From positions 992,001 through 1,056,000 of the forward strand of contig NZ_PJNE01000001.1 in the NCBI RefSeq assembly GCF_002846495.1: a DNA stretch of 64,000 bases, given 5' to 3'. A program made the position numbers and the translations under genes. Positions 39,869 to 44,873 of this stretch are shown in pieces; the stretch's first letter is position 1; each line of letters begins with the position of its first letter. Below the pieces are notes generated by a model. The model was given only the letters and a program-made list of their open reading frames with translations, was not told the origin of the DNA and made no database searches. Source of the DNA: Phycicoccus duodecadis. GTDB taxonomy: Bacteria; Actinomycetota; Actinomycetes; Actinomycetales; Dermatophilaceae.

Positions 39869-40408
39869 TCACGCTCCGCTCGACGCCGGCCCCGGCCAGT
39901 TCTTGTCCGGGACCGGCGTCGGGCGTCCCGGCTGCTCGCCGCCGCGGGCGTCGAGGTAGCTCTGCTTGGGCACCATGACCTTGCGGCGGAAGACGCACAC
40001 GACGGTGCCGTCCTGGTTGTAGCCCACGGTCTCGACGTGGACGACACCGCGGTCGTCCTTGCTGGTGCTCTCGCGCTTGTCGAGCACCGTGGTCTCGCCG
40101 TAGAGGGTGTCGCCGTGGAAGGTCGGCGCGACGTGGCGCAGGCTCTCGACCTCCAGGTTGGCGATGGCCTTGCCGCTGACGTCGGGCACCGACATCCCGA
40201 GCAGGATCGAGTAGACGTAGTTGCCGACGACGACGTTCTTGCCGAACTGCGTCGTCTCCTGCGCGTAGTGGGCGTCGAGGTGCAGGGGGTGGTGGTTCAT
40301 GGTCAGCAGGCAGAACAGGTGGTCGTCGGCCTCGGTGACGGTCTTGCCGGGCCAGTGCTTGTAGGTCGCACCGACCTCGAACTCCTCGTAGCTGCGCCCG
40401 AACTGCAC
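39869..40408 (-). CDS. MaoC family enoyl-CoA hydratase
   Basis: The 179-residue hot-dog-fold protein has the hydratase-2 pattern: TVTEADDHLFCLLTMNHHPL, in which N and H of the MNHHPLH region are catalytic, and GNYVYSILLGMSV. It resembles MaoC hydratases such as mesaconyl-CoA hydratase of the ethylmalonyl-CoA or methylaspartate cycle. The malyl-CoA lyase-like gene at 51583 makes that reading attractive but not proven. GTG 40408 follows AAGGAG; an ATG at 40413 is out of frame. Confidence 0.85.
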   Translation of the reverse strand: MQFGRSYEEFEVGATYKHWPGKTVTEADDHLFCLLTMNHHPLHLDAHYAQETTQFGKNVVVGNYVYSILLGMSVPDVSGKAIANLEVESLRHVAPTFHGDTLYGETTVLDKRESTSKDDRGVVHVETVGYNQDGTVVCVFRRKVMVPKQSYLDARGGEQPGRPTPVPDKNWPGPASSGA

Positions 40409-40526
40409 GTCATGTCTCCTTCGCTGGACCTCGCCCGACGTCCGCCATCCTCCCGCGCGGGCCCGCGCCCCGGCAGCCCGCCGCGGCGTGCCCTTCCCCA
40501 CACCGCCCCCACCGCACTCGTGCCTC

Positions 40527-40574
40527 GGTTGTTGCAGGATGGCCACGCAGCTGCAGCGCCATCACGCAGCAACC
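40527..40574. repeat. 48-bp palindrome, copy 1
   Basis: This starts GGTTGTTGC and ends GCAGCAACC, with GATGGC/GCCATC inner arms and the core GCAGCTGC in the exact centre (20+8+20). It lies 34 bases beyond the stop of the DUF559 gene. The sister copy is at 41592-41639, with identical length and core. Confidence 0.8.
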
Positions 40575-40608
40575 GCGCCGGGCCGGTGCGCACACGACAG
40601 CAAGGCCA

Positions 40609-41526
40609 TCACACCCCGGCCGCCGCGAACGCCCGCCGGACCAGCCGTGCGAACCGCGCCGGATCGTGCAGGTCGGCCCAGGTCACCCGGACCACCGTGT
40701 AGCCCAACGCCCGCAGGCGGTCCTCGCGACGCTTCTCGGCGACCAGCGCGGCTCGACCGTCGGCGCCCTCGTACTTCACGGCACCGTCGAACTCCACCAC
40801 CACGCGCCCGTGGACGAGGAGGTCGACTCGGGCCACGAAACGCCCCTCCTCGTCGTGGACCACCACCTGCGAGCGGGCCGGGTACCCGAGGTCATGGAGC
40901 AGCAGACGGGTCAGGCTCTCGCCCGGCGACTCGGCCTGCGCATCCCCGAGCGTCACGAGCTCCTCGCCCCGTCGGACAGCGGCGGCGGTGACGGCCCGGT
41001 GGGCGAGGGCCGCGCGCAGGGCGTCGAGGTCGCAGGACCCTCGCGCCAGCGCGGCATCGAGCGCCACGACCCCCGGCCGCAGCCCACTCCGCAGGGCCAC
41101 CTGGGCGATGGCGACCGGGAGCGGGACGACGCGGACACCGTCGACGACGACGTCGGGCTCCGGCCCTCGCGGATGGAGGTGGAGGCTGCCGCCCCGACGG
41201 GTCCTCAACACGTCGGCGACCACGTCGACCGTCGACCCCAGCGGCGACACCAACGGCAGCCCGTGCAGGGCCAGCGCGGCCTCGTGGCTCGCGGCCACCG
41301 GGTCCCGCCGGCTGAGCAGGACCGCGCGGGTCCTCAGGGCGAGGCGTTCCTCCGGGCCGGCCGCCGCCCACAGTGCCCCCACGACGTACGCATCGCGCCG
41401 GACCCGCACCAGCAGCCCCGAACGCCGGGCGGCCACCAGCCCGTGCTCGTCGACGCCGACCCGCGCGGCGAGCCCGGACGTGACGACCCCGCCGCGAGCG
41501 CGGGCAAGGGCGAGCAGCCGGTCCAT
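40609..41526 (-). CDS. AbiEi-like wHTH and DUF559 (Vsr-fold) nuclease-like protein
   Basis: The 305-residue protein has an N-terminal winged-helix-like region (ARARGGVVTSGLAARVGVDE, as in AbiEi-type proteins) and a C-terminal DUF559 domain with the Vsr/PD-(D/E)XK-like pattern ARVDLLV, VVVEFDGAVKY and KRREDRLRALGYTVVRV. Such genes are multicopy in actinobacteria, often annotated as type IV antitoxin or endonuclease domain proteins; no toxin gene is adjacent. It is bracketed by 48-bp palindromes 34 bases downstream and 65 bases upstream. ATG 41526. Confidence 0.85.
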   Translation of the reverse strand: MDRLLALARARGGVVTSGLAARVGVDEHGLVAARRSGLLVRVRRDAYVVGALWAAAGPEERLALRTRAVLLSRRDPVAASHEAALALHGLPLVSPLGSTVDVVADVLRTRRGGSLHLHPRGPEPDVVVDGVRVVPLPVAIAQVALRSGLRPGVVALDAALARGSCDLDALRAALAHRAVTAAAVRRGEELVTLGDAQAESPGESLTRLLLHDLGYPARSQVVVHDEEGRFVARVDLLVHGRVVVEFDGAVKYEGADGRAALVAEKRREDRLRALGYTVVRVTWADLHDPARFARLVRRAFAAAGV

Positions 41527-41591
41527 CCGCCCAGCGTGCCCCGATGGCCGCGCCCCGGCGCCGCGTCATCCACAGGCGGCCGCGACGGCGG

Positions 41592-41639
41592 GGTTGTTGC
41601 GCGATGACGGTGCAGCTGCCCCGCCAGGTGGCAACAACC
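41592..41639. repeat. 48-bp palindrome, copy 2
   Basis: This starts GGTTGTTGC and ends GCAACAACC, a perfect 9-bp outer stem that extends 3 more pairs to 41589-41642. The central octamer is GCAGCTGC. The inner arms are less well paired than in copy 1. It lies between the DUF559 gene start and glpK. Confidence 0.8.
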
Positions 41640-41689
41640 CCGGCGCCCGGCTCACGCCCCGTTCCGGTCCGTCGCCATAGGCTCGGGCC

Positions 41690-43201
41690 ATGGCGGACTT
41701 CATCGGCGCGGTCGACCAGGGCACGACGAGCACCCGGTTCATGGTGTTCGACCATGCCGGCCAGGAGGTGGCCCGCCACCAGCTCGAACACGAGCAGGTC
41801 CTCCCCCGCGCCGGATGGGTCGAGCACAACCCTCTCGAGATCTGGGACCGCACGCAGAGCGTCATCGGCTCGGCCCTGACCTCGGCCGGCATCACGAGCG
41901 CGGACCTGGCCGCGATCGGCATCACCAACCAGCGCGAGACCGCCATCGTGTGGGACCGCCGCACCGGCCGCCCCTTCCACAACGCGATCGTCTGGCAGGA
42001 CACCCGCACCGCCGCGATCGCCAAGGCGTTGGACGCCGACGGCCGCGGCGACGTCATCCGCGCGAAGTCCGGGCTGCCCCCGGCCACCTACTTCTCCGGC
42101 GGCAAGATCCAGTGGCTGCTCGAGAACGTCGACGGGCTGCGCGCGGCGGCCGAGCGCGGCGACGCCGTCTTCGGCACCCCCGACACCTGGGTGGTCTGGA
42201 ACCTCACCGGCGGTCCCGACGGCGGCCTGCACGTCACCGACGTCACCAACGCCAGCCGCACGATGCTGATGGACCTCACGACCCTCGACTGGGACGACGA
42301 GCTGCTGGGGTTCTTCGGCATCCCGCGCGCGATGCTGCCGAGCATCCACCCGAGCAGCCACCCCGAGGCGTTCGGCGTGACCTCGGGCGACCGCCGCACG
42401 GCCAAGGTGCCGATCGCGGGCGTGCTCGGCGACCAGCAGGCCGCCACGGTGGGGCAGGTCTGCTTCGAGCCCGGGGAGGCCAAGAACACCTACGGCACCG
42501 GCAACTTCCTGCTGCTGAACACCGGCGAGGAGCTCGTCCGCAGCCGCAACGGCCTGCTCACGACGGTCGCCTACCAGCTCGGCGACGCCAAGCCGGTGTA
42601 CGCCCTCGAGGGCTCGATCGCGGTCACGGGCAGCGCGGTGCAGTGGCTGCGCGACCAGCTGGGCATCATCAGCGGCGCCAGCGAGGTCGAGCGCCTGGCC
42701 GCCCAGGTCGAGGACACCGGCGGGGTCTACTTCGTGCCGGCCTTCAGCGGGCTGTTCGCGCCGTACTGGCGCAGCGACGCCCGCGGCGCCATCGTCGGGC
42801 TCTCGCGCTTCAACACCAACGCCCACCTGGCGCGGGCGACCCTGGAGGCCATCTGCTACCAGTCCCGCGACGTGGCCGAGGCGATGGAGGCCGACAGCGG
42901 CGTCGAGATGACCTGCCTGAAGGTCGACGGCGGGGTGACCGCCAACAGCCTCTGCATGCAGCTCCAGGCCGACATCCTGGGCGTGCCGGTCTCGCGGCCC
43001 GTCGTCGCCGAGACCACCGCCCTCGGGGCGGCGTACGCGGCCGGGCTGGCGACCGGGTTCTGGTCGGGCACCGACGAGCTGCGCGAGAACTGGGCCGAGG
43101 ACCGCCGCTGGGAGCCGAGCTGGAGCGAGGACCAGCGCCGCGAGGGCTACCGCGGCTGGAAGAAGGCGGTCGAGCGCACGCTCGACTGGGAGGAGGACTG
43201 A
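41690..43201 (+). CDS. glpK: Glycerol kinase
   Basis: The 503-residue FGGY kinase phosphorylates glycerol to glycerol 3-phosphate. Motifs visible: [48 protein letters not shown], the catalytic Asp in [13 protein letters not shown] and the ATP-binding [17 protein letters not shown]. Length is usual. TAGGCT (41678-41683) lies 6 bases before ATG 41690, so it is probably leaderless. No glpF or glpD adjoins; the gene lies just beyond palindrome copy 2, in the opposite direction to the DUF559 gene. Confidence 0.97.
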
Positions 43202-44850: not shown

Positions 44851-44873
44851 CTTTTCGGGGTGACCCCGAAAAG
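44851..44873. terminator. Hairpin between pepP and the PIG-L gene
   Basis: CTTTTCGGGG, loop TGA, CCCCGAAAAG form a perfect 10-bp stem with A/T-rich bases at its foot. It lies between convergent genes. A weaker nested structure (CAAGGG 44804 with CCCTTG 44837) precedes it. Both could terminate pepP transcripts. Confidence 0.7.

Follow-up and report, generated by a model that had tools for sequence, protein, structure and literature searches.

In a REPtron, repetitive extragenic palindromes (REPs) border the gene for a TnpA-REP (RAYT) transposase, cognate palindromes are dispersed through the genome, the gene is usually present in a single copy, and the abundance of the palindromes is tied to the presence of the gene (PMC8266576 and PMC3733652, in the parts available). 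The first of these sources adds that the gene shows no sign of mobility. As far as the papers go, REP palindromes have so far been tied to one enzyme family, the HUH RAYTs. The locus described here lies in a 64,000-nucleotide stretch of the genome of the actinobacterium Phycicoccus duodecadis (contig NZ_PJNE01000001.1, positions 992,001 to 1,056,000; the whole stretch is called the window below) and consists of a gene for a predicted fusion of an AbiEi antitoxin-like part with a Vsr-like nuclease, bracketed by two 48-bp palindromes. The gene and its two palindromes probably form a single unit that resembles a REPtron but has another enzyme at its core, in which binding, cutting and repair would account for the matching of the palindromes and for their spread.

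The nearest counterpart of the N-terminal part, by profiles and predicted fold, is AbiEi, the antitoxin of the type IV toxin-antitoxin system AbiE. AbiEi binds two 23-bp inverted repeats positioned 3 bp apart, and neither AbiEi nor Rv2827c binds the other's repeats (PMC7319586, available part). The 48-bp palindromes are of similar length, and paired binding of this kind offers a plausible model for them: each, as two 24-bp halves, could fit a pair of AbiEi-like parts. The present locus differs from AbiE in that no AbiEii-like nucleotidyltransferase toxin gene adjoins the nuclease gene between its neighbors MaoC and glpK, in the additional nuclease domain, and in the second palindrome downstream. 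The catalytic fold predicted for the C-terminal part is shared with the homing endonuclease I-Bth0305I and the very-short-patch repair endonuclease Vsr. Unlike these, the nuclease is fused to an AbiEi-like part and has palindromes on both sides, and no intron, intein or cytosine methyltransferase was recognized between MaoC and glpK. IS200/IS605 elements also carry a coding sequence between palindromic ends, but theirs is an HUH transposase and the element itself moves, whereas the gene described here mostly stays put. The palindromes bordering IS200/IS605 are mentioned in PMC8266576 (available part). DUF559 domains occur in Vsr-like endonucleases, one of which is the Vsr-like DUF559 protein VsrA of Caulobacter (PMC12907096); the part of that paper available mentions no flanking palindromes, the string 'palindrom' having 0 occurrences. 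The open-licence literature in PMC yielded no article in which palindromes of this kind are linked to DUF559 or AbiEi nucleases.

A sequence-only reading of the window had assigned each palindrome a length of 48 bp, with GGTTGTTGC at the start, GCA(G/A)CAACC at the end and GCAGCTGC in the exact centre, and had placed them 34 bp past the stop codon and 65 bp ahead of the start codon of the nuclease gene. The sequence bears out the coordinates, the motifs and the spacing. Both palindromes are imperfect, with 14 of the 20 arm pairs matched in each by our own count, and both have a perfect 8-bp centre. According to a repeat search, the upstream and downstream palindromes are 72% identical across 54 nt, and the upstream one, when extended to 2 x 30 nt, shows 77% complementarity. 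The two flanks of the gene match each other with a score of 48, compared with no more than 34 in 168 control comparisons, a match that exceeds chance. The same reading had found no third copy in the window, and this holds for the entire 3.5-Mb genome: the pattern GGTTGTTGC-N30-GCANCAACC occurs in these two places only. The strict motif was found in none of 57 other genomes, and a DNA search with an idealized palindrome returned, beyond the upstream copy, weak matches only (E 0.2 or more). A looser scan for GGTTGYTGC produced matches in 6 of 186 genomes, including the window's own (G000 in our numbering) and G083 with a 44-bp match, and pointed to the family dispersed in G180 and related genomes, described below. 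With its resident pair only, the window unit may be static or may since have lost its copies.

The palindromes could fold as RNA, and REPs at 3' ends act on mRNA. That they serve as hairpins or as terminators for both directions on either side of the gene is nevertheless very improbable, because no terminator-like site was found in 40400-41720, the sole Rfam match up to E 1 (E 0.41) is far under its gathering score, and copies acting as RNA upstream and downstream would have no need of a shared sequence. Furthermore, the stem mismatches display no G-U bias on the gene strand (57 G/T versus 56 A/C); recognition of DNA rather than RNA is favored because a strand-specific wobble bias is missing.

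The domains of the window protein were assigned from PADLOC profiles and the predicted structure. Residues 1-195 of the model resemble an AbiEi antitoxin (match to PDB 6y8q), and profile and predicted fold together suggest an AbiEi-like DNA-binding protein. Residues 199-305 resemble the nucleases I-Bth0305I (3r3p) and Vsr (1cw0), giving the predicted protein a PD-(D/E)XK domain of the Vsr fold. The Pfam match to AbiEi_4 is just below the cut-off (24.9 versus 25), NCBIfam yielded no match, and a sequence profile search of the PDB returned nothing under E 0.9. For the label DUF559, given to the gene in the sequence-only reading, the Pfam match remains under the family cut-off (14.2 versus 20.6 bits). 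The putative catalytic residues are retained in 142-146 of 146 family proteins.

Comparison of flanking sequences indicates that the palindrome bracket is general in this nuclease family. Homologs are present in 48 of 58 genomes, the window's own included, among the matches listed. A set of 93 genes with 300-bp flanks was reduced to 79 once duplicates and cut-off genes had been removed, and 77 of these were used in the flank-match test. The upstream and downstream flanks match with a score of at least 36 in 53 of the 77 loci, whereas none of 115 shifted comparisons and none of 53 comparisons with the same spacing elsewhere (168 in total) reach this score, the maximum being 34. In an enlarged set with 280-bp flanks, for which 146 of 183 loci were kept after duplicates, loci of odd length and those with flanks shorter than 250 bp had been dropped, the match reaches at least 36 in 112 of the 146 homologous loci. 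Both sets contain orthologs and paralogs, which are not independent. Palindromes scoring at least 12 are found in 38% of the upstream and 34% of the downstream flanks, compared to 1% of 303 control windows. The sequence shared by the two flanks varies from locus to locus.

The palindromes that vary between loci tend to follow the nuclease lineage. A tree of 149 proteins, consisting of the 146-locus set plus three of the dropped loci, was calculated by a quick method. Each of three recognizable palindrome types needs a single change on this tree relative to the other two; the groups were compared only among themselves, with 128 ungrouped entries outside the count and L052 placed in its group by hand. 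The TGCTAGCA entries form a clade of their own (7 entries, support 100), and the TCGGGGTs entries make up four of the five members of one clade (support 100). A single orthologous site in G187 and G186, where the neighboring DNA is about 92% identical, carries different nucleases (70% and 47% identity to the query L021), and their palindrome pairs are unrelated (L176 versus L173). Either a replacement took place at this site, or the gene and its palindromes diverged fast together.

The same observations bear on the origin of the palindromes. They might have been spread by another enzyme, for example an HUH/RAYT transposase encoded elsewhere in the genome, the nuclease genes merely being positioned between them, much as REPs or terminal inverted repeats border RAYT genes in other bacteria (PMC3733652 and PMC8266576, in part). 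This is very unlikely, given that the palindrome families track both the lineage of the nuclease and the genomes in which its cognate member is encoded, that the nuclease difference at the G187/G186 site is accompanied by a palindrome difference on both sides, and that a constant GTAG tag is lacking. GTAG is absent by eye from both window palindromes and is found inside some units, such as those of L078 and L075, without being constant; the check covered GTAG tags. A Pfam scan of 53 family members at E <= 0.01 gave AbiEi_4, MTES_1575, DUF559 and AbiEi_3_N only and no Y1 transposase match, the genomes themselves not having been searched for RAYT genes. Filing the locus as a REPtron was therefore rejected because the enzyme differs, with no Y1 match and no constant GTAG tag, and because of this it is only likened to one: it appears to work like a REPtron, but with an AbiEi/Vsr-like fusion enzyme and in actinobacterial hosts.

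Three palindrome families are dispersed, for the most part where the genome also encodes the cognate nuclease; these genomes are related, and the co-occurrence counts are not independent. Among 58 genomes, ATCGGGTSACCCGAT is present in 30, 37, 18, 38, 2, 12 and 16 copies in G002, G003, G005, G008, G011, G017 and G027, respectively, in a single copy in G020, and in none of the other 50; a reversed-pattern control gave 0. These counts include the copies flanking the nuclease, so that a count of at least 2 arises partly by construction and the excess is the finding. All seven genomes with at least 2 copies hold a nuclease flanked by ATCGGGTSACCCGAT or, in the case of G011, its variant TCGGGTSACCCGA. 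A number of copies form doublets, spaced 62 bp apart around a second hairpin, an arrangement called REPIN in pseudomonads. A second family, TTTCGGGGTSACCCCGAAA, flanks L057, a sister nuclease locus in the window's own genome. Four further copies occur in 461 kb of this genome, one of them in the window (Table 1). There are 3 copies, nuclease-flanking pairs excluded, in 400 kb of G006, which has the cognate nuclease L074, and none in 400 kb of G010, no homolog of which falls in the cognate nuclease clade of the tree. The site of the window's solo copy was compared in nine relatives. The two neighboring genes are adjacent in G006, G011 and G002, G007 has an intervening gene, and in the remaining five the second or both neighbors were not found in the stretch. 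The copy is present in G006, whereas G011 and G002 have intervals of 36 and 46 bp without it. In the G006 sample, the flanks of L121 (3 sites) and L068 (1 site) also have dispersed relatives.

The third family, GCAGCAACCTCTGCTAGCAGAGG, was found in G180 and its relatives, in which a unit of about 85 bp around GCAGCAACCTCTGCTAGCAGAGGTTGCTGC lies as an inverted pair on either side of the nuclease gene, with further occurrences at other places. A sequence model, R1, was built from units of G180, G181, G183 and G187, and 150 of several thousand candidates per genome were scored with it, counting both palindrome orientations and the flanking units. Seven genomes with a close nuclease ortholog gave 20, 16, 53, 22, 8, 42 and 34 matches, compared to 5, 0, 7, 0, 0 and 5 in six genomes without one and 0 in G000, G003 and G006; hits in the four source genomes arise partly by construction, those in G175, G176 and G178 do not. 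Among the matches listed, the distinct sites number 3 to 21 per nuclease-bearing genome, of which 1 to 3 are beside the nuclease. Given a choice of seven genomes, 10 of 14 solo units are most like the flanking units of their own genome. The outer stem pairs change together (14 cells versus 5.5 in shuffles), which in related sequences is supportive only; the number of pairs altered on both sides (5) is not unusual, being equaled in 64 of 500 shuffles, but the other four covariation measures are. One G180 solo site is missing in G175 and G181, and a second is common to all three genomes. A third, at the 3' side of purA, is present in G175 and missing in G184, the only usable absence, as the neighboring DNA differs in most other genomes. 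At this site downstream of purA, which in G180 and G175 is taken by the dispersed unit, G184 has a different repeat-like sequence with inverted arms (L205), possibly of another family. In addition, a GGTAGTAGTAGGACGTCCTACTACC-like palindrome is kept in three genomes (L212, L213 and L215) adjoining a filled or empty site of a G180 solo unit.

At the level of the family, the nuclease-palindrome unit of the REP/RAYT kind that the sequence-only reading had proposed is supported by the bracket, by the link to lineage and by the three dispersed families. The exact motif of the window, in which it had been proposed, flanks its gene but is not dispersed. The check that this reading had suggested, for copies at the nuclease genes and alone elsewhere, turned up both in the three families and no solo copy of the window's pair.

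The protein could instead be a DNA-binding regulator, with the palindromes serving as operators for its own gene and, at the dispersed sites, for neighboring genes, and with nothing being mobilized. AbiEi proteins autoregulate via paired 23-bp inverted repeats (PMC7319586, available part), the upstream palindrome is close to the start of the gene, and the locus has a long vertical inheritance with no plasmid or phage match. However, an operator would not be expected to have a second, matching copy on the downstream side, the window's solo copy is positioned between convergent genes, and several other copies seem, by eye, to follow stop codons. Neither the retention of the putative catalytic residues nor the number of exact sites, as many as 38 in one genome and some of them doublets, is in line with regulation, which we regard as an unlikely explanation.

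The nuclease gene is alone between a MaoC-like gene and glpK, names that were recognized from sequence. An orthologous nuclease gene occupies this position in 8 of 12 genomes of the genus. The comparison with relatives that had been suggested for finding an empty MaoC-glpK interval turned one up in G002, in which the two genes are adjacent with neither nuclease gene nor palindrome between them; this genome is too diverged to define an insertion point. In its place between MaoC and glpK, the window locus seems to have been passed on mainly by vertical descent. Among the eight orthologs, the two flanks of one gene match each other better on average than flanks swapped between species (48.8 versus 37.1; 37 of 20,000 permutations were equally good), the own-flank match being best in three and second best in three.

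The REPtron-like reading can be put as a series of steps, drawing on what the sequence comparisons support: the bracket and its generality, the lineage-related palindromes, the cognate dispersal, some empty sites, the two-part predicted fold and the conserved putative catalytic residues. The AbiEi-like half would recognize its own palindrome as a pair of ~24-bp inverted half-sites. The Vsr/I-Bth0305I-like half would then nick or cut the DNA at or near the palindrome. Repair of the cuts would maintain the match between the two flanking copies and hold the unit where it is; in certain lineages it may also copy the palindromic unit to new intergenic sites. The outcome would be REP-like families, usually with one resident nuclease, although G183 has two.

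A number of observations weigh against this reading. No flank match at the threshold was found in 34 of the 146 loci, and the window's own pattern has no dispersed copies in the 3.5-Mb genome; the same is true of the flanks of six G000 loci out of seven, looked for in 11-13% of that genome, and of those of four loci in G010, for which 10% of the genome was sampled. The ATCGGGTs entries lie within a part of the tree of 27 entries (support 80) that includes 17 without an ATCGGGT palindrome. Some weak R1 matches occur in G177, G182 and G186, where the close ortholog is absent, and the three G180 solo sites compared are partly shared with relatives. Target-site duplications are not definable because the intergenic DNA is too diverged. 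The gene loci are stable, with at least six of the seven G000 loci having a clear counterpart in G006, and tblastn searches of 72,556 plasmids and 50,697 phages gave no match to the window protein, whose clade is the only one queried. Two outcomes had been named beforehand as fatal to the unit: palindromes occurring at random or only next to unrelated genes, and a locus inherited identically in all relatives without the palindromes. Both are absent, yet in G003 and G008, two of the eight MaoC-glpK orthologs, the agreement between the two flanks is by now no closer than that with flanks from other species.

The features of the window are collected in Table 1. Between the upstream palindrome and the gene there is a hexamer that recurs across the family: of 146 genes, 125 have TCCACA or TGTGGA in the 150 bp upstream, whereas on the downstream side only 6 of the 146 have it, and among background windows 83 of 2167. 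On the gene strand, TCCACA shows phasing at about -58 and -87 relative to the start codon. The box, which resembles an actinobacterial DnaA box, may be part of the nuclease gene promoter. L059 (G000:C1:1161918-1162806), a paralog in the window's genome, is matched in two adjacent pieces and may be broken; its upstream palindrome is well formed.

Table 1. Coordinates in the window of the nuclease gene, its palindromes and associated features
Feature	Position	Strand	Evidence
AbiEi-like/Vsr-like nuclease fusion gene (predicted), 305 aa, stop codon included	40609..41526	-	sequence, Pfam, PADLOC profiles, predicted structure
Residues 1-195, AbiEi-antitoxin-like part, putative palindrome-binding part	40942..41526	-	
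Residues 199-305, predicted PD-(D/E)XK nuclease domain; E203, D235, E245, D247 and K251 near-invariant	40612..40932	-	
Downstream 48-bp palindrome, GGTTGTTGC-N11-GCAGCTGC-N11-GCAGCAACC	40527..40574	no strand	sequence, genome scan, repeat search
Upstream 48-bp palindrome, GGTTGTTGC-N11-GCAGCTGC-N11-GCAACAACC	41592..41639	no strand	sequence, genome scan, repeat search
TCCACA box (TGTGGA on gene strand, -48 to -43 from start codon), between upstream palindrome and gene; family motif, less frequent orientation here	41569..41574	+	sequence, family statistics
Solo palindrome CTTTTCGGGGTGACCCCGAAAAG, family flanking sister locus L057, between two convergent genes	44851..44873	no strand	motif scan, comparison with relatives

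On balance, we favor the view that the Actinobacteria possess a second, independently evolved REP system. It would consist of AbiEi-Vsr fusions, each with a private long palindrome that is kept on both sides of the gene and seeded genome-wide, the specificities of protein and palindrome drifting together by lineage. If this is true, a nuclease family non-homologous to the RAYTs shows the same genomic behavior, and dispersed palindromes can arise more than once. The common uncharacterized AbiEi_4/DUF559 genes would then gain an assignable role, and the matched protein-palindrome pairs would provide a natural series for the direct study of DNA specificity, cutting and spreading.
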